DNA from: Clostridiales bacterium
GTDB lineage: Bacteria; Bacillota; Clostridia; DUOD01
Assembly (NCBI GenBank): GCA_012838995.1
Contig: DUOD01000029.1
Span: forward strand, 1 to 62,798
Direction: 5' to 3'
Length of the DNA: 62,798 nucleotides
Positions within the stretch are counted from its first letter, which is position 1. The number at the start of each line of letters is the position of its first letter. Made by a program: the position numbers and the translations under genes. Positions 15,440-38,632 of this stretch are shown one piece after another. Under the pieces are notes generated by a model. That model saw only the letters and a program-made list of their open reading frames with translations. It did not search any database and was not told the origin of the DNA.

Positions 15440-16501
15440 CTATAAATGACTGATTATCATGCTGCCCATCTCCCGGGTACCCACCAGCGTCATGCCCGGT
15501 TCCATTATATCGCCGGTGCGATAGCCCTGCTCCAAGGTTGCAGCCACTGCCCTCTCCACCATATCGGCCTCTTCTTCCATACCAAAGGAATACCGCAGCA
15601 TCATGGCCACCGACATTATGGCAGCAATGGGGTTTGCTTTGTTCTGGCCTGCTATATCGGGTGCAGAACCGTGTACCGGCTCGTAAAGCCCCGGCCTTCC
15701 TTCGCCCAAGCTGGCCGAGGGCAGCATGCCCAAAGACCCGGTAAGCATGGATGCTTCGTCGCTCAAAATATCACCAAACATATTGCTGGTCACAATAACG
15801 TCAAATTGATGGGGATCGCGGATAAGCTGCATGGCGCAGTTGTCAACGTACATATGGGAAAGCTCCACCTGGGGATATTCGGCACCCACCCGGGTTACAA
15901 CCTCCCGCCACAGCCTGGAACTTTCCAGTACATTGGCCTTATCCACCGACACCAACCGTTTTTTTCTTTTCATGGCTATATCAAAGGCCGCCCGGGCAAT
16001 CCTTTCAACCTCGGCTTCCGAGTATTCCTCGGTATCATACGCCATTAACCCGCCGTTGTGTTTACGGCCCCTCTTGCCGAAATATATACCACCGGTAAGC
16101 TCCCTCACCACCATAATGTTTATGCCGTCGCCTATCACCTCCGCCTTTAGCGTGGAGGCGTTTTTCAGCTGGGGAAACAGTATGGCCGGCCTTAGGTTGG
16201 CAAACACGCCCAAGGCCTTTCTCAAGCCCAGCAGCGCCTGTTCAGGCCTGACATCCCCGGGCAGGTTATCCCACTTTGGTCCGCCCACCGCACCCAGCAG
16301 TACCGCATCACTGTTTTTACAACCATCCAAGGTAGCCTCCGGCAAGGGCTCGCCCAACTTGTCAATAGCACAACCACCGGCCATATAGCTCTCAAACTCG
16401 AAGGTATGACCCTTCTTTTGGCCTATGGACTCTAACACCAATACCGCCTGTTCTATGATATCCGGTCCGACACCGTCTCCGGGTATTAACGCTATCTTCA
16501 T
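15440..16501 (-). CDS. leuB: 3-isopropylmalate dehydrogenase
   Basis: NAD-dependent oxidative decarboxylase (353 aa) of leucine synthesis, converting 3-isopropylmalate to 2-oxoisocaproate; in organisms with CimA it can also act on 3-methylmalate to give 2-oxobutyrate. Visible family motifs are the N-terminal [11 protein letters not shown], the loop [16 protein letters not shown], and the NAD/metal region ending [14 protein letters not shown] with MFGDILSDE before it. The ATG overlaps the end of leuD by 4 bases. It is the last gene of the operon and is followed by a terminator hairpin. Confidence 0.96.
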
Positions 16502-16992
16502 TCCTTCGTCATCCTTTCCTTAACATAGTTAATGAGACCGTCAGCCTTCATTATCTCTTGCATAAACTCCGGAAAGGGTGTTCCTTTATAGATTTTACCT
16601 GTAGTGTGGTTTTTTATACTACCCTCTACAATGTCCACTTCCACCTCATGACCTTCCTGTATATCCGTCGCAGCCTCGGGGCTTTCGATTATGGGCAGGC
16701 CTATATTTATGGCATTCCGGTAAAAAATCCTGGCAAAGCTGCAGGCTATTATGCAGCTTATTCCCGACGCCTTAATTGCAATGGGAGCGTGTTCCCTGGA
16801 GGAACCGCAGCCAAAATTGTTACCGGCAACCATGATATCACCGGACCGTACCCTGTCGACAAAGGTGCTGTCCAGGTCCTCCATACAATGGGCAGCCAGT
16901 TCTTTGGGATCGAAGGTGTTAAGATACCTGGCCGGGATTATCACATCGGTATCAACATTATCGCCGTACTTGATAACTTTGCCCCTAATCAT
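16498..16992 (-). CDS. leuD: 3-isopropylmalate dehydratase small subunit
   Basis: Small subunit (164 aa) of isopropylmalate isomerase, providing the swivelling aconitase domain. Motifs include [27 protein letters not shown] and [17 protein letters not shown]. It overlaps leuC by 4 bases (ATGA) and leuB by 4 bases, so the three are translationally coupled. The short, stand-alone form is of the archaeal/clostridial type that can hydrate both isopropylmalate and citramalate intermediates, which suits the presence of cimA in the same operon. Confidence 0.96.
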
Positions 16993-18254
16993 TTTACTAC
17001 CTCCTCTGGTGACGAAATTTTACCGGTAACGGCAGACGCCGCCGCCACCGCCGGGCTGGCCAGGTAAACCTCGCTTTTGGGATGGCCCATTCTGCCTACG
17101 AAATTTCTGTTGGTGGTAGCCACCGCCCGCTCACCCTCAGCCAGTATTCCCATGTGCCCGCCCAGGCAGGGACCGCAAGTGGGGGTGCTTACCACCGCAC
17201 CGGCTTCGATGAAGATTTTCAACAAGCCCTCCTCCATGGCCTGGAGGTAAATCTTCTGGGTGGCCGGGAAGATAATGGTCCTTACAAAGGGATGTACCTT
17301 CCTACCTTCAAGTATCTTAGCCGCCGCTCTCAGGTCTTCTATCCTGCCGTTGGTACACGAACCTATCACCACCTGGTCTATGGGTATATCCCCCACCTCG
17401 TCTATGGTACGGGTATTTTCCGGCAAATGGGGGAAGGCCACCGTAGGTTTTATAAGGCCCAGATCTATTTTGTAAACCTTACAATATTGGGCATCGTCAT
17501 CGGCCTTGTAAATGGTGTATTCCCTTTGGGAATGTTCCTTGACGTATTCAATGGTTTTTTCATCCACTTCAAATATACCGTTTTTGGCTCCTGCTTCTAT
17601 GGCCATATTGGCCATGGTAAACCTATCGTCCATGGACAGGTTGCCTAGCCCGTCACCGGTAAACTCCATGGATTTGTAAAGGGCACCGTCCACCCCTATC
17701 TTGCCTATTATATGGAGTATAACATCCTTGCCGCTAACCCATGGTTTAAGTTTTCCCGTCAGTTCAAACTTAATGGCCTCCGGCACCTTAAACCATGCCT
17801 CGCCGGTGGCCATACCGGCAGCCATATCGGTACTGCCTACACCGGTGGAAAAGGCACCCAGGGCACCGTAGGTACAGGTATGGGAATCGGCACCGATTAC
17901 CACATCCCCGGGAACAACCAAACCCTTTTCCGGTATCAAGGCATGTTCGATACCCATCTGACCGATCTCAAAATAGTTTTTTATTTTATACTTTTTGGCG
18001 AACTCCCTTACGCTCTTACATTGCTGGGCCGATTTTATATCCTTGTTGGGAGTGAAATGATCGGGTACTATGGCGATCTTTTCCCTATCAAAAACCTCCT
18101 GTACGCCTATCTTATGAAATTGCTCCATGGCAACCGGTGTAGTAACGTCATTACCCAGCACCAAATCCAGTTTGGCCTTTATCAAATCCCCGGGTTTTAC
18201 ATGGTCAAGACCGGCATGATGGGCCAATATCTTCTGTGTCATGGTCATTCCCAT
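16989..18254 (-). CDS. leuC: 3-isopropylmalate dehydratase large subunit
   Basis: Large, [4Fe-4S]-binding subunit (421 aa) of the isomerase. The cluster cysteines are visible in VIGSCTNGR and [23 protein letters not shown] and the substrate-loop PDH near residue 80 are also present. Of three closely spaced ATG codons, the one at 18254 has GGAGG 7 bases upstream and was chosen over 18260, which is only 1 base from it. The 421-aa length is the archaeal/clostridial form, shorter than the enteric LeuC. It probably also processes citramalate made by CimA, encoded directly upstream. Confidence 0.95.
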
Positions 18255-18265
18255 ATCCATTCCTC

Positions 18266-19831
18266 CTATTTTACAGTCTTATAAAGAAAATATTCTATGG
18301 AATCCACCAGCGCCACCCAGCTGGCCTCTATTATGTTTGTGGATACCCCAACGGTACCCCAAATATCCTCCCCGTCGGTGGATTCTATATGAACCCTTAC
18401 ATTGGCCGCGGTAGCCGATGAACTGTCCAGTACCCTGACCTTATAATCGGTCAACCGCATTTTTTTCAACTGGGGATAGAACACCCCTAGGGCCTTCCTC
18501 AAGGCCTTATCCAGTGCGTTTACCGGACCGTCGCCTTCGGCGGCCGTTATTTCCTCCACGCCTTCCACTTCCACCTTTATCATGGCCGAAGCGCTGTTTG
18601 CGCCCTGCCACGGTTCTTCGGCCAGTACCTTAAAATCCTTTACGGTAAAGAATTTCTTATCCTTTCCCAGCTTTCTCCTAACCATTAATTCAAAGGAGCT
18701 CTCCGCCCCTTCGAACTGATAACCCCTGTGCTCCAATTCCTTTAATTTATCTATTATCTCCTGGGTAAGGGGAGATTCCTTGGTAATGGTAGGATCTATC
18801 TTTCTTATCCTGGACAATATGGTGCTCCTGCCGGACACCTCGGACATTAAAATCCTGCGCTCGTTACCCACCAGTTCGGGCTTTATGTGTTCAAAGGACG
18901 CTGGGTTTTTATTGACGGCGTCGATGTGCATACCGCCCTTATGGGCAAAGGCGCTATTCCCTACGTAGGGCATCCTCTCGTTATGGGCCAGATTGGCGAT
19001 TTCGCTTACATACCTGGAAGTACTGGTAAGCTCGGCCAGTTTTTCAGGGTCTATGCACCTATAGCCGAGTTTTAACTGTACATTTGGTATTATTGAACAT
19101 AGGTTGGCATTACCGCACCGTTCCCCGTACCCGTTAATGGTACCCTGAACCTGGACCGCCCCGCACTTAACCGCCATCAACGAGTTGGCCACCGCCATTT
19201 CGGTGTCATTATGACAGTGGATGCCCACCGGTATGTCAAAGGTTTCCACCACCTTTCGGGTAATGTCCTGGATATCCAAGGGGAAGGTGCCGCCGTTGGT
19301 ATCGCACAGTACCAGCCAATCGGCACCGCCTTGGGCGGCCGCTTTTAATGTTTCCATGGCATACTCGGGGTTGTTTTTATAGCCGTCGAAGAAATGTTCA
19401 GCATCATACACGACTTCCTTGCCATGACCCTTCAAATACTCTATGGTTTCGCGTATCATGTTCAAATTTTCTTCCAGGGTAGTCCGTATAACGTCGGTAA
19501 CATGGAAATCCCAACTCTTACCGAAAATAGCCACCACCTGGGTATTGGCCCTCAAGATGGATTTAATGTTTTGATCGTCCTTTACGTGGGTATTGGCCCT
19601 ACGGGTGCTTCCAAAGGAAGTCAGTTTACTATGGCGCAGGCGCCTTTGGGACATCCGGTTAAAAAAATTCAGGTCCTTAGGATTGGAACCTGGGTTGCCC
19701 GCTTCAATATAGTCAACTCCTAACGCGTCCAATCGCTCCACAATTCTTAATTTGTCCTCTACGGAAAAGGATATACCCTCAGCCTGGGCACCGTCCCTTA
19801 ATGTGGAATCATAAATATATATCTTTTTCAT
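18266..19831 (-). CDS. cimA: (R)-citramalate synthase
   Basis: 521-aa member of the HMGL-like/LeuA family that condenses pyruvate with acetyl-CoA to citramalate, the first step of the threonine-independent isoleucine pathway. The N-terminal barrel starts [19 protein letters not shown] (AQ where LeuA has EQSPG) and has the metal ligands in [15 protein letters not shown] and [13 protein letters not shown]-terminal LeuA-type regulatory domain is present from about residue 395. The [10 protein letters not shown] signature and 521-aa length distinguish it from LeuA, encoded 15 bases upstream. No threonine deaminase is seen in the window, consistent with this route supplying 2-oxobutyrate. Confidence 0.92.
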
Positions 19832-19846
19832 GGTACCACCTCCACC

Positions 19847-21370
<1,524 letters not shown>

Positions 21371-21386
21371 AACCAACCCTCCTGCT

Positions 21387-22896
<1,510 letters not shown>

Positions 22897-22915
22897 TGAC
22901 TCCACCTCCTTAGTT

Positions 22916-24550
22916 TTAAACCCTACAGGGCGATGTTTTCTCATTAACGTCTGTCTTAACCTCCACCAGCACTGAGGTCTTGCTGTTAATGAGCGTGTCA
23001 ATGGCTTCGTCCACCTCATCCTCCCTGTCAACTCTTAAAGCAGGGAGTCCGTAAGCCTCTGCCAGCTTACAAAAATCGGGGTTGCCCGTTAAATGGACCT
23101 GGCAATACCTGCAGTTATAATGCTGTTGCTGCAGCTCCCTCACCATACCCAGGGCGTTGTTGTTGAATAACAGTATCTTTACCACCAGGTCCTCCTGTTT
23201 CAAAAGGGCCAGCTCTTGTAGGCTCATTTGCAAGCTGCCGTCGCCGGTCACCAGTATAACCTCATTATTCCTATCGGCCAATTTAGCGCCTATGGCAGCC
23301 GGCAGACCATAGCCCATGGTACCCAGTCCGCCGGATGTTAAGAATGTTCTGGGCTTTTTAACTGTATAGTAATTTCCCGCCCATATCTGATGCTGACCAA
23401 CATCGGTCACCAGCACCGTTTTATCCTTATCTACCTTATCCGATAACCTTGTTAGAATATAACCCGGCTTTAATGACCGGCAGAATAAACCTTTATGATG
23501 ATATTTATCCTTCCAGGCTTTAATGTCCTGTAGCCAGTCGCTGTCCTGCCTTTTAAGATTATATTTCAGCAGCTCGGTGAGGGTACATTTAACATCACCG
23601 ACTATGGGTATATTGGTGTTCACGTTTTTGCCTATCTCTGCAGGGTCTATATCTATATGAACTATAACGGCATTGGCGGCAAAAGTATCGGTACTGCCGG
23701 TGGCCCTGTCGCCTAAGCGTGCACCTATCACTATCAAAAGATCGGCCATGGCCACGGCCCTGTTGGCGGCATAACTACCGTGCTGTCCCAGCATGCCCAG
23801 GCTCAGGGGATGGTCCCCCGGAAAGGCACCTATACCCATTAGGGTGGTGGCCACCGGCGCCTTTATCCTTTGGGACAATTGGGCGATCTCATCGGCGGCA
23901 TTGGAGGTTATAACCCCGCCCCCGGCGCATATTACCGGTCGGGAGCATTTTTCTATGGCCTTTGCCACCCTTTTTATCTGCAAGGGGTGACCGGCATAGG
24001 TCGGCTTATAGCCCCTTAATTCTACCCTGTCGGGGTAGTTATAGTCAATCTCTTCCATAGCAACGTCCTTGGGTACGTCCACCAGTACCGGCCCCGGCCT
24101 GCCGGTAGAGGCTATATAGAAGGCCTCGGCTATTATTCTGGGCAGTTCCCTGGCATCCTTAACCAGGTAATTGTGTTTGCAAAAGGGTTCGGTGGCACCG
24201 GTAATGTCTACTTCCTGGAAAACATCCCTTCCTATCATTTCAACCGGAACTTGGCCGGTAATGGCCACTATGGGTATTGAATCCATATATGCGGTGGCTA
24301 TGCCGGTAACCAGGTTGGTAGCCCCCGGTCCGGAAGTGGCCATGCATACACCCACTTCGCCGGTTATCCTTGCATACCCGCTGGCTTCATGAACGGCAGC
24401 CTGCTCCTGCCTAACCAGTACGTGTTTAATGGACGAATCCATTAAACTATCATACAGTGGAAGGACTGCCCCTCCGGGATAACCGAAAATCACCTTAACG
24501 TTATTCCGTTCCAGACTTTTTATAATTGCCTGTGCTCCCGTCATTCTCAT
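22916..24550 (-). CDS. ilvB: Acetolactate synthase catalytic (large) subunit
   Basis: 544-aa thiamine-diphosphate enzyme that makes acetolactate (valine, leucine) and acetohydroxybutyrate (isoleucine). The catalytic glutamate lies in RQEQAAVHEASGYAR, the FAD/TPP region in FGYPGGAVLPLYD, and the TPP-Mg motif is GDGSLQMSLQELA through LLFNN. It is slightly short of the usual 550-560 residues but complete. It is the first gene of the operon and the direct target of the ykkC aptamer and T-box leader. The ribosome site is GGAGG about 11 bases before the ATG. Confidence 0.96.
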   Translation of the reverse strand: MRMTGAQAIIKSLERNNVKVIFGYPGGAVLPLYDSLMDSSIKHVLVRQEQAAVHEASGYARITGEVGVCMATSGPGATNLVTGIATAYMDSIPIVAITGQVPVEMIGRDVFQEVDITGATEPFCKHNYLVKDARELPRIIAEAFYIASTGRPGPVLVDVPKDVAMEEIDYNYPDRVELRGYKPTYAGHPLQIKRVAKAIEKCSRPVICAGGGVITSNAADEIAQLSQRIKAPVATTLMGIGAFPGDHPLSLGMLGQHGSYAANRAVAMADLLIVIGARLGDRATGSTDTFAANAVIVHIDIDPAEIGKNVNTNIPIVGDVKCTLTELLKYNLKRQDSDWLQDIKAWKDKYHHKGLFCRSLKPGYILTRLSDKVDKDKTVLVTDVGQHQIWAGNYYTVKKPRTFLTSGGLGTMGYGLPAAIGAKLADRNNEVILVTGDGSLQMSLQELALLKQEDLVVKILLFNNNALGMVRELQQQHYNCRYCQVHLTGNPDFCKLAEAYGLPALRVDREDEVDEAIDTLINSKTSVLVEVKTDVNEKTSPCRV

Positions 24551-24625
24551 AATATCTAATACCTCCTATGGACAGGGAATTGTCCACATACCTTTCACCT
24601 ATTATGCATTATACCCCCATATATA

Positions 24626-24669
24626 ACAAAACCTCCTTCTGTCCCTAATAAACTTAGGGGCGGAAGGAG
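24626..24669 (-). terminator. T-box-controlled terminator before ilvB
   Basis: On the minus strand CTCCTTC-CGC-CCCTAA pairs with TTAGGG-ACA-GAAGGAG, followed by GTTTTGTT. The 5' side lies just after the T-box sequence AGGGTGGTACCGCG, so formation of the antiterminator would compete with this hairpin in the standard way. Confidence 0.88.
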
Positions 24670-24895
24670 TAATGCTTCGCGGTACCACCCTAATTCACAG
24701 CCAAACTTCACATGCAGGCTGCGATCTTATTTATTGATAACGGTAAAACCACCGGAAAGCCCTACACAGATATGCCATCCTTCAAGCTACGGCTTAGGAG
24801 CGAGCTATTATATACCTATTACCGCCGCCTTCCACCCACCGGCGGCTCTCTTGAGGTAATACGGGTATTTTTTCTCTCCCTCATCGCCTTTCTCA
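24626..24895 (-). promoter_or_regulatory. T-box leader of the ilv-leu operon
   Basis: tRNA-sensing leader. The 14-base T-box AGGGTGGTACCGCG is at 24691-24678 (minus strand). Stem I starts near 24895 (GGCGATGAGGGAGAG), has a distal AGAGAG plus CCGCC/GGCGG hairpin, and closes with CTCGCTCC. Below the helix ATACC/GGTAT, the 3' side of the specifier loop reads ATAATAG; the triplet followed by a purine would be ATA (Ile), but CTC (Leu) just downstream cannot be excluded. In this family, uncharged cognate tRNA stabilises the antiterminator and turns the operon on. It lies immediately after a ykkC aptamer and its terminator. Confidence 0.9.
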
Positions 24896-24911
24896 TATTA
24901 AAATGCAATAT

Positions 24912-24966
24912 AAAAAACGACCCCGACAGAACTTCCGAAAAGAAGAAACCTGCCGCCGGGCCTTTG
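24912..24966 (-). terminator. Putative terminator of the ykkC aptamer
   Basis: Downstream of the aptamer, CCCG-GCG-GCAG can pair with CTGT-CGGG, capped by a CTTC/GAAG hairpin and followed by GTTTTTT. The 5' arm shares the GCCCGG bases that belong to the conserved aptamer core, so ligand binding should prevent the terminator, as in other ykkC-class ON switches. Confidence 0.65.
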
Positions 24967-25068
24967 GTCCCCACGGTGTAATACTGACCGTGGACCGTGT
25001 TTTGTACCGCTTGGTCGATGGCCCGCATACTAGCGGCACAACCCTAGGTACGTTCCCTTCTTGCTCCG
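24945..25068 (-). promoter_or_regulatory. ykkC-class riboswitch aptamer, probably ppGpp subtype (2a)
   Basis: The minus strand carries the ykkC core in order: ACCTAGGGTT (about 25050), a CCGC/GCGG hairpin, GACCAAGCGGTAC closing P1 with GTACC, then P3 (GGTCC-ACGGT paired with ACCGT-GG-GGACC) and the conserved GTGGGGACCAAAGGCCCGG. This layout is specific to the ykkC family, whose subtypes sense guanidine, ppGpp, PRPP and others. Subtype 2a (ppGpp) is the one known to occur before branched-chain amino acid genes, so ppGpp is the best guess from context; the discriminating nucleotides were not verified. Only 50 bases separate it from the T-box. Confidence 0.82.
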
Positions 25069-25086
25069 ATTTAAAGTTTTTTAAAC

Positions 25087-25115
25087 ATAATACCAATAGT
25101 GTTGCCGTTTGTCAA
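25087..25115 (-). promoter_or_regulatory. Promoter of the ilv-leu operon
   Basis: TTGACA (25115-25110) and TATTAT (25092-25087) with 17-base spacing on the minus strand, about 20 bases before the ykkC aptamer. Transcription would start near 25080 and pass two leader terminators before ilvB. Confidence 0.8.
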
Positions 25116-25153
25116 CGGTTTTTGGGAAATTTATTGCCTTTTCCCGTAATCCC

Positions 25154-25237
25154 AAAATAACCTTTAATTTTATAGCCAAATGGAGTAAAATAGACAAAAT
25201 AACCTTTAATTTTATAGCCAAATGGAGTAAAATAGAT
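25154..25237 (+). repeat. Two tandem copies of a 42-base promoter-like unit upstream of fba
   Basis: The units 25154-25195 and 25196-25237 are identical except for their last base. Each contains TTTAAT, 17 bases, then TAAAAT, i.e. a plausible SigA-type promoter reading towards the aldolase gene 64 bases downstream. The duplication has the look of a recent tandem event and may double promoter strength. Confidence 0.85.
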
Positions 25238-25300: not shown

Positions 25301-26230
25301 ATGCCACTGGTAACATCAAAGGAAATGCTTAAAAAAGCCTATGAAGGCGGTTATGCCGTCGGTGCCTTCAATGTAAACAATATGGAAATAATCCAAGGGA
25401 TCACCGAAGCCGCCAGGGAAGTAAACGCTCCTTTGATTCTTCAGGTATCGGCGGGAGCCAGGAAATATGCTAAACATACATACCTGATGAAGCTTATAGA
25501 AGCCGCTATAGAGGATACCGATCTTCCTGTCTGCGTTCATCTGGACCACGGTGAGAGCTTTGAGATTTGCAAAGCCTGTATTGACGGCGGATTTACATCT
25601 GTTATGATAGACGGGTCCAAATATCCCTTTGAAGAAAATATCAGGCTCACCAAACAGGTTGTGGATTACGCCCATGAAAGGGGTGTGGTGGTGGAAGGCG
25701 AACTGGGAAGACTGGCCGGCATCGAAGATGATATAAACGTATCCGACAAGGACGCTGCCTTCACCGATCCCGACCAGGTACAAGAGTTTGTGGAACGGAC
25801 CGGGGTGGATTCCCTTGCCATTGCCATTGGCACAAGCCATGGCGCCTTCAAATTTAAGGGCAAACCCAGGCTAAGATTTGATATTTTGGAGGAAATAGAA
25901 AAAAAGATACCGGGGTTCCCCATAGTATTACACGGCGCCTCCTCCGTTCTCCCTGAATATGTGGAAACAATCAATAAATACGGCGGTAAAATTCCGGGGG
26001 CTCAGGGCGTACCCGAGGACATGTTAAGAAAAGCAGCTTCCATGGCCGTATGCAAGATTAATATCGACTCCGATTTAAGGTTGGCAATGACCGCCGCCGT
26101 CAGAAAGCATTTGGCTCAAAACCCTGAAGACTTTGACCCCAGAAAGTACTTGTCCCCGGCCAGACAGGCCATCAAAGAAATTGTAAAGCACAAACTGGTT
26201 AACGTGCTGGGATGTAACGACAAGATATAA
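25301..26230 (+). CDS. fba: Class II fructose-1,6-bisphosphate aldolase
   Basis: 309-aa zinc-dependent aldolase cleaving fructose-1,6-bisphosphate in glycolysis, or condensing triose phosphates in gluconeogenesis. Zinc and catalytic motifs are VCVHLDHGESFEIC (His-Asp-His), EGELGRLAG, AIAIGTSHGAFKFKG and VLHGASSVLPEY, with the phosphate-binding KINIDSDLRLAM near the C-terminus. It is a single-gene unit on the plus strand, ribosome site AGGAGG 7 bases before the ATG, with its own terminator and a duplicated promoter-like repeat upstream. Tagatose-bisphosphate aldolase is a less likely alternative because no sugar-catabolic neighbours are present. Confidence 0.93.
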   Translation: MPLVTSKEMLKKAYEGGYAVGAFNVNNMEIIQGITEAAREVNAPLILQVSAGARKYAKHTYLMKLIEAAIEDTDLPVCVHLDHGESFEICKACIDGGFTSVMIDGSKYPFEENIRLTKQVVDYAHERGVVVEGELGRLAGIEDDINVSDKDAAFTDPDQVQEFVERTGVDSLAIAIGTSHGAFKFKGKPRLRFDILEEIEKKIPGFPIVLHGASSVLPEYVETINKYGGKIPGAQGVPEDMLRKAASMAVCKINIDSDLRLAMTAAVRKHLAQNPEDFDPRKYLSPARQAIKEIVKHKLVNVLGCNDKI

Positions 26231-37269: not shown

Positions 37270-38331
37270 TTAGTTTGCCCTGGCCAGCATACTTTTTCCA
37301 CTGATGATTCTGGTCATTGCGTCCAAAACCCTGTATACATCCTTCCGGCTAACGTATTTATGGGTTACAAACCTTACAATGCCGTTCGGTGATCCTAAAG
37401 CCTTAATACCAAAGGCCTTAAGCTCTTGGGCCAATTGGTATCCGTTATATCCCGTTTGGGAAATATCGAATATCACTATATTGGTTTGAACCCTGCCGGT
37501 ATCGATTTTAATACCGGGAATATTGGCCAGGCCCTCGGCCAAAACCTTGGCATTTTCATGGTCTATGGCCAACCTGTCAACCATTTCCGTCAAGGCCACT
37601 ATTCCGGCGGCAGCCAGTACACCCGACTGTCTCATGCCCCCGCCCAGCATCTTCCTTATCCTCCTGGCCTTTTGAATAAAAGCTTCACTTCCGGCCAGCA
37701 GCGATCCCACGGGCGCGCACAGGCCCTTGGATATACAAAACATTACGCTGTCACAGTACCGGGTAATGTCCTTAACATCCACGCCCAGGGCCACAGCGGC
37801 GTTAAACACCCTCGCTCCGTCAAGATGAACGGGTATGTTGTATTTTCTCCCAACGCGGTAGACGGGCTCCATCCTGTCAGGATGGATGGCTATCCCCCCT
37901 GCCCTGTTATGGGTGTTTTCCAGGCATATTAGACCGGTGCTGGGAAAATGGATATCATCTATCCTTATGCTGTCCTCCACTTCCCCGGCATCCAATACGC
38001 CATCCCTTCCCTTAAGCAGTTTGGCCTGAACACCGGCCAAAAAGGCCATACCGCCCACCTCGTAATTAAAAATATGACAGTCCTCCTCGAGTATTATCTC
38101 CTGGCCCCTGTTTGTATGGGTCAACACCGCCAGCTGGTTACCCATGGTACCGGTGGGTACAAACAGGGCAGCTTCCTTTCCCACCCTTTGTGCCGCCATA
38201 CTTTCCAATTTAGCCGTGGTAACATCATCACCATATACGTCATCCCCCACTTCGGCTTCATACATGACCCTTCGCATCTTTTGGGTGGGTACCGTTACCG
38301 TATCGCTCCTTAAATCTATTATTCTGTCCAT
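37270..38331 (-). CDS. ltaE: Low-specificity L-threonine aldolase
   Basis: 353-aa PLP enzyme of the beta-eliminating lyase family, cleaving L-threonine (and allo-threonine) to glycine and acetaldehyde, reversible in vitro. It starts with the diagnostic DLRSDTVTVPTQKMR and has GDDVYGDDVTTAKLE, the His-stacking region LEEDCHIFNYE, and the PLP lysine in FCISKGLCAPVGS. The chosen ATG (38331) lies after AAAGGA and gives the family N-terminus; the frame extends 16 codons further. A tandem glycine riboswitch and a terminator lie directly upstream, so expression should respond to glycine. Confidence 0.93.
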   Translation of the reverse strand: MDRIIDLRSDTVTVPTQKMRRVMYEAEVGDDVYGDDVTTAKLESMAAQRVGKEAALFVPTGTMGNQLAVLTHTNRGQEIILEEDCHIFNYEVGGMAFLAGVQAKLLKGRDGVLDAGEVEDSIRIDDIHFPSTGLICLENTHNRAGGIAIHPDRMEPVYRVGRKYNIPVHLDGARVFNAAVALGVDVKDITRYCDSVMFCISKGLCAPVGSLLAGSEAFIQKARRIRKMLGGGMRQSGVLAAAGIVALTEMVDRLAIDHENAKVLAEGLANIPGIKIDTGRVQTNIVIFDISQTGYNGYQLAQELKAFGIKALGSPNGIVRFVTHKYVSRKDVYRVLDAMTRIISGKSMLARAN

Positions 38332-38365
38332 TCCGCAACATCCTTTCTTTAATGCCAGGCAAAAA

Positions 38366-38397
38366 ACAAAAAAGGCCAAATCCTGTTTGATTTGACC
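38366..38397 (-). terminator. Terminator between glycine riboswitch and threonine aldolase
   Basis: GGTCAAATC pairs with GATTTGGCC (one G-T pair), followed by TTTTTTGTTTTTT on the minus strand, ending 35 bases before the aldolase ATG. It is the likely expression platform of the riboswitch. Confidence 0.8.
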
Positions 38398-38469
38398 CTC
38401 TGGAAGGATAAAAAAGACATTGGGAGAACAACCAGCACAGTAACTTGTGCTGATAGTCCTGCTTTAAAC

Positions 38470-38632
38470 TTCCACTCTGTCCTTTTGCCTGAGAGATTAG
38501 CAATTAAGCTTTGCCCCTTCGGCGCTCTAAACGAGTCTCTCCAGAGGTTCGTCGGGCCATGGTCCTGCCTGAAGCTCAAGGCACCTGAGAGTTTAGCCCC
38601 TTCGGTGGGATTATTCATCCCTCTCCCATGAC
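38470..38632 (-). promoter_or_regulatory. Tandem glycine riboswitch
   Basis: Two glycine aptamers in series on the minus strand. The first has GGGAGAGGG, CACCGAAGGGGCTAAA and CTCTCAGGTGCC; the second has CTGGAGAGACTC, CGCCGAAGGGGCAAAG and CTCTCAGGCAAAAGGACAGAG. These are the diagnostic core sequences of the gcvT-type glycine riboswitch. A strong promoter precedes it and a terminator follows. Whether glycine turns the gene on or off cannot be decided by eye. Confidence 0.93.

Follow-up and report, generated by a model that had tools for sequence, protein, structure and literature searches.

Organisation of the leader and the ilv-leu operon

The window, that is the whole stretch of 62,798 nucleotides that was analysed, carries on its minus strand an operon in the order ilvB-ilvN-ilvC-leuA-cimA-leuC-leuD-leuB, in which neighbouring genes overlap or are separated by gaps of a few bases. 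All eight genes were matched by NCBIfam, in agreement with the first-pass annotation, which had claimed an eight-gene operon including cimA. The listed ilvN open reading frame (22387-23031) begins further upstream than the gene given here; its family match starts at residue 47. In the leader (25115-24551, minus strand) the order is promoter, ykkC-type aptamer, terminator 1, T-box, terminator 2, ribosome-binding site and ilvB, and each piece named in the first-pass annotation was located in the order that it had given.

25087..25115, minus strand, sigma-70 type promoter, TTGACA-17-TATTAT with extended -10 TG (11/12 consensus positions)
24942..25060, minus strand, ykkC subtype-2 aptamer, ppGpp-type (2a) by comparison (covariance models)
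24912..24962, minus strand, intrinsic terminator 1 (-26.5 kcal/mol, then U6)
24653..24893, minus strand, T-box leader, stem I to antiterminator (RF00230, 104.6 bits, cut-off 93)
24802..24804, minus strand, specifier codon CUC (Leu), then G (CTC aligned in 7/7 leaders of alignment A3)
24678..24691, minus strand, T-box core AGGGTGGTACCGCG (from the sequence)
24624..24669, minus strand, intrinsic terminator 2, alternative to the T-box antiterminator (predicted pairing)
24567-24562, minus strand, ribosome-binding site AGGAGG (from the sequence)
22916..24550, minus strand, ilvB, acetolactate synthase large subunit (TIGR00118, 751.8 bits)
22387..22902, minus strand, ilvN (NF008864, 229.7 bits)
21387..22400, minus strand, ilvC (NF004017, 582.1 bits)
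19847..21376, minus strand, leuA (NF002086, 818.2 bits)
18266..19831, minus strand, cimA, citramalate synthase (TIGR00977, 802 bits)
16989..18260, minus strand, leuC (TIGR02083, 776.7 bits)
16498..16992, minus strand, leuD (TIGR02084, 268.9 bits)
15440..16501, minus strand, leuB (TIGR00169, 522.4 bits)

The promoter had been proposed at 25115-25087, and a TTGACA promoter is present at the equivalent place in seven relatives. Just upstream of it, at 25153-25236, there is a perfect tandem duplication of a 42-nt block (CAAAATAACCTTTAATTTTATAGCCAAATGGAGTAAAATAGA x2), which precedes the divergent fructose-bisphosphate aldolase gene at 25301; no other copy was found in the genome at up to three mismatches. 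It is possible that this is a regulator site or a recent duplication.

The T-box stem I, core and second terminator that had been claimed are likewise present, with a match to RF00230 above the family cut-off, the core AGGGTGGTACCGCG at 24691-24678 and terminator 2 at 24669-24624. The UGGU of the core is complementary to the ACCA end of tRNA-Leu(GAG), of which the genome has one, with discriminator A. The leucine T-box looks sound and is the input of this leader that can be relied on. Altogether 14 T-box leaders were found in this 1.9 Mb genome, 13 of them scoring over the family cut-off, a sign that tRNA-sensing attenuation is heavily used.

The ykkC aptamer, its subtype and its terminator

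A custom ykkC covariance model (R1), built from 12 sequences with the window included, matched the aptamer at 82.7 bits (E 8e-18) and matched nothing else in the window, where the aptamer core pattern occurs once (0/100 shuffles). The ykkC-family aptamer of the first-pass annotation is thus upheld. In the rest of the genome no convincing second ykkC element was found, the next best match scoring 12.4 bits. The P1 strands (25060-25054 and 24948-24942) pair at 7/7 positions in the window and in its seven relatives. Across the helices, 488 cells are changed on both sides against 136 in shuffles, as counted on an alignment fitted to the structure of the model, with slid controls dropping from 0.615 to 0.123 or less; the related sequences in these comparisons are not independent. 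One element that had been called conserved, GTGGGGACCAAAGG, is not: at this place the family has the consensus GTGGG-N-AUAAAA-, and 105/105 relatives carry A where the window has C at 24966.

For subtype comparison, the numbered ykkC residues C75, A76, C77, G95-G97, A101, G104 and G105 were used (PMC6031431). C75, which pairs with the ligand guanine, is the C at 24978, inside ACACCG. Residues G48 and C49 are at 25010 and 25009, giving the pyrimidine at position 49 that the ppGpp-type rule requires, and C75, A76, C77, G48 and C49 are all kept. The criteria for the ppGpp class that were applied here come from PMC6031431, PMC5912903 and PMC10687018.

When 391 genomes of the class were scanned by exact pattern, two kinds of ykkC element emerged. 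One follows a purine aptamer directly, ahead of pur or permease genes, and has CCG-NN-GGG with CCC-N-G-N-CGG; the residue numbers of PMC6031431 identify it as the PRPP class, with G96. The other precedes ilvB or ilvN, mostly with a T-box between, and has CCG-U-GGG with CCC-G-GCGG. The junctions of the window aptamer match this second, branched-chain kind.

The PRPP riboswitch (subtype 2b) before a T-box draws its support from position 96. In the window a single unpaired G follows CCC (24957/24956), and an ungapped alignment puts this G at 96. However, the junction is 1 nt shorter than the CCC-NN-GCGG forms, and in a gapped reading 96 can be taken as absent. Since the answer depends on which alignment is used, assignment of the ligand from position 96 alone was dropped, and the ligand was judged by gene context and held-out models instead. 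The sample was widened by scanning named genomes for the branched-chain (2a) signature, which gave at least 119 stretches. Among the matches listed, the residue in the 96 position of two-nucleotide junctions is usually A, and the single junction residue of 2a-signature elements is G in 24, U in 16 and A in 3; because it varies, it is not the conserved G96. In addition, 2b elements have two nucleotides between G79 and GGG, as well as CCC-N-G-N-CGG, whereas the window has one, and CCC-G-GCGG.

Held-out models with the same 11 base pairs each were trained on 24 branched-chain elements without the window's group (R2, 2a) and on 16 purine elements (R3, 2b). The window aptamer scores 58.1 bits with R2 and 40.4 bits with R3, 17.7 bits apart. 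Among untrained sequences, all branched-chain elements score higher with the 2a model and all purine elements with the 2b model. The first-pass annotation had proposed the ppGpp subtype as probable and had named a better covariance match to another subtype as grounds for giving this up; on the held-out models 2a is the best fit, at 58.1 bits against 40.4 (2b) and 23.6 (guanidine-I).

Gene context points the same way. Among the matches listed, 99 loci carry the 2a signature with 1 kb or more of sequence downstream; ilv, leu or liv genes are within 1.5 kb in 56 of these and PurC/E/F/L homologues in none. By sequence reading, the remaining loci mostly appear to have a glutamate-synthase amidotransferase domain, a natA-type ABC ATPase or a paaK-like ligase; some identities in relatives come from reading the translated sequence, not from profile searches. 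The published gene set of the ppGpp class agrees with the ilv/leu/liv, glutamate-synthase and natA-type contexts (PMC5912903). One element, at locus L150, precedes a purine permease and fits the 2a pattern by chance of composition. Judged by these sequence comparisons, the reading of the window aptamer as ppGpp type (2a) stands, and a PRPP riboswitch is very improbable. A guanidine-I riboswitch before the T-box is the least credible reading of all: guanidine-I (RF00442) is the sole ykkC-family model in Rfam that matches, but the score, 23.6 bits, is far below the cut-off of 63, residue 49 is not the A of guanidine-I (PMC6031431) but C, and there are no guanidine genes nearby.

GGCCCGGCGGCAGGTTTCTTC (24962-24942) serves both as the 3′ strand of P4 and P1 and as the 5′ arm of terminator 1, which confirms the terminator that had been said to share sequence with the aptamer. 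Terminator 1 and P1 are mutually exclusive, as they use the same strand, and the U6 run is better than in most relatives. In characterised ppGpp switches, the ligand stabilises P1 and blocks the terminator (PMC10687018). The parts, their order, the subtype, the specifier codon, the mutually exclusive pairings and the operon are all established here by computation.

Changes at near-invariant positions of the aptamer

In an alignment of 106 elements (the window and 105 relatives), 39 columns are conserved at 95 % or more in the 105. The window departs at four of these, while 94/106 sequences depart at none and the next worst departs at three. These changes, and a duplication in P3, are as follows.

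25053, minus strand, G6 to A (G in 105/105 relatives)
25038..25039, minus strand, CC to GU in the P2 arm (25039 C to G, 25038 C to U; C in 105/105 and 104/105 relatives)
24966, minus strand, A to C in the P4 purine stretch (A in 105/105 relatives)
24986..24999, minus strand, tandem duplication CACGGTC-CACGGTC in P3 (from the sequence; competing hairpin in predicted folds)

A second set of mixed subtypes (n=60) has G at the 25053 position in 59/60, and at 25039 and 24966 the base is the expected one in 60/60. G6 is conserved in the class though it is not the published subtype marker; in the crystal structure it pairs with A74, contacts the phosphate of ppGpp and stacks on the ligand's guanine (PMC6031431). 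The P4 purine stretch docks on P2b (PMC10687018).

P3 of the window aptamer has a C-A mismatch, and its duplicated CACGGTC is able to pair with the P4 5′ strand, ACCGTGG, in a predicted hairpin that competes with the binding pocket. In the P2 arm the altered strands can still pair, GUG with CAU, once the register is shifted. Relative to the free fold, the aptamer fold carries a penalty of 7.9 kcal/mol, which ranks second worst among 113 (median 0.9; 0-3.3 in its own group) with P1, P2 and P4 only; folding energies ignore tertiary contacts and ligand, so this penalty is no more than suggestive. A ranking with P3 forced from the model alignment was discarded, as P3 is misaligned in many rows. 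Among the 26 type-2a elements tested, the window aptamer has the lowest 2a-model score. The T-box of the same leader is ordinary, its 104.6 bits comparing with 94.8-112.3 in six relatives.

No near relative of the same genus, family or order as the source genome was present among the genomes searched. The source is a draft in 70 contigs, and the four changes are known from this single genome; they may reflect base-level errors or a change across the lineage, although errors at exactly these four positions seem unlikely.

A putative two-input gate and its relation to known tandem switches

The leader is likely, in our assessment, to descend from a known two-input transcription-attenuation module. 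RNA polymerase would start at about 25080 and first transcribe the ykkC subtype-2a (ppGpp-type) aptamer, in which ppGpp would hold P1 and P4 together and so block the overlapping terminator 1. The leucine T-box would be made next, and binding of uncharged tRNA-Leu(GAG) would allow the antiterminator to replace terminator 2. With both terminators passed, the eight-gene operon would be transcribed, an AND-like output for which both amino-acid starvation and leucine shortage would be needed. The ligand, the ON direction and the AND logic are here proposed by analogy with characterised relatives. Serial, independent terminators had been claimed from the outset, and two separate expression platforms are indeed present; no promoter-like site was found between the aptamer and the T-box, therefore polymerase must pass both terminators.

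Decay of the aptamer through loss of (p)ppGpp synthesis is rejected, as the genome encodes a Rel protein. Because the aptamer is strongly diverged at invariant positions, it probably responds to ppGpp less strongly than the aptamers of relatives do, and perhaps not at all. A working ppGpp input, probably weaker than that of relatives, is the probable state and is given about two thirds of the weight. The ppGpp input is inherited architecture, with its function in this genome uncertain, and the 'alarmone high' input may have been weakened, lost or changed.

The chief alternative is that the first switch has decayed: the ppGpp aptamer would have lost ligand binding in this lineage, terminator 1 would simply leak or act as a constitutive brake, and regulation of the operon would be left to the leucine T-box alone. 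We consider this a minority reading, though one of some substance, with four changes where about 105 relatives show no variation, the P3 mismatch and the CACGGTC duplication with its competing hairpin, the lowest 2a-model score and the second-worst fold penalty, and a T-box that meanwhile scores normally. However, terminator 1 is intact with its U6, and with a dead aptamer ahead of it, so strong a terminator would shut off eight biosynthetic genes. P1 also remains paired at 7/7 positions, the changed P2 strands pair in the shifted register, and Rel is present.

It is also conceivable, but unlikely, that the altered pocket (A at position 6, with changed P2 and P4 contacts) recognises a different phosphorylated nucleotide. 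The specificity of ykkC aptamers shifts by single changes, G96A altering it about 40,000-fold (PMC6031431), and in the window the pocket, the P2 arm and the P4 stretch are altered while the helices and expression platform persist. Nevertheless, C75, A76, C77, G48 and C49 are kept and the regulated genes are those of ppGpp switches. The change is seen in a single genome only, for which drift is a simpler explanation than a new ligand. More broadly, and tentatively, a ppGpp-class aptamer in which G6, the P2 CC and the P4 tertiary-contact A are changed while its terminator is still strong might be drifting to a new ligand or affinity, or losing one input of a two-input gate while the T-box is kept.

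Returning to the inherited two-input module, tandem ppGpp riboswitch/T box(Leu) leaders have been published and proposed as AND gates (Sherlock et al. 2018, PMC5912903 Fig. 6C; PMC6031431), and 15 cases with the ppGpp switch first and 16 with the T box first, with the same predicted logic, have been tabulated (RNA Biol 2022, PMC9481103 Table 2). In these published cases the gate logic is a prediction too (PMC5912903, PMC6031431, PMC9481103). The caution in the first-pass annotation that the principle may not be new was therefore well placed. In the present comparison a T-box core is downstream of the ykkC element in 15/110 testable loci and upstream in 19/110, among the matches listed; these are pattern counts and are likely to be low, and a reversed control of the downstream T-box pattern gave 0 matches. 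The tandem arrangement is known and recurrent.

The window resembles the published ppGpp/T box(Leu) tandem in having the aptamer first, separate terminators, a leucine specifier and a branched-chain amino acid operon, with both switches predicted to be ON switches. It differs in the four changes at invariant positions and the P3 duplication in the aptamer, whose ligand response is here a prediction. Examples of the ppGpp riboswitch (2a) include Desulfitobacterium hafniense ilvE, Clostridiales bacterium natA and Oxobacter pfennigii livK (PMC12373219). With this class the window shares the pyrimidine at residue 49, C75/A76/C77, a P1 that competes with the terminator and the gene context, but it has A at G6, GU for the P2 CC and C for the P4 loop A, and matches the class model less well than any other element tested. 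With the PRPP riboswitch (2b) the scaffold is common; the window is without the CCC-N-G96-N-CGG junction and the purine context, and scores 17.7 bits lower with the 2b model. The B. subtilis ilvBNC-leuABCD operon also has a leucine-sensing T-box before ilv-leu genes (PMC12452182), but the window has a second switch upstream and cimA in the operon.

A 2025 survey labelled T-box/'guanidine' pairs before branched-chain amino acid operons (PMC12452182). Rfam's single ykkC-family match hides the tandem, which is why such pairs were called 'guanidine' there.

For the tandem itself, published biology is thus confirmed in a further deep lineage of the Firmicutes. As a set of natural mutations, the diverged aptamer may help to show which ppGpp-pocket contacts can be dispensed with, and it bears on whether an RNA AND gate can lose one input in nature and keep the other.

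Several other riboswitches were observed. In the window, a single glycine riboswitch aptamer (38467-38554, minus strand, 62.4 bits) precedes a gene of the beta-eliminating lyase family (37270-38379), which may encode a threonine aldolase. Among the other genomes, L016 and L017 (about 1500 and 2387) and also L244 have PRPP-type ykkC aptamers in pairs, separated by under 1 kb within a single purine operon; in L016 and L017 these stand before purC and purL. Sporomusa and relatives (L053, L056, L058, L086 and others) have several ppGpp-type elements per genome, which precede glutamate-synthase-like genes, and a paaK-like ligase followed by ilvN. Two ykkC-like elements (L246:1501-1599 and L250:889-990) have GCACCUAUUGRC in place of ACACCG and fit neither the ppGpp nor the PRPP signature; these could be another subtype.
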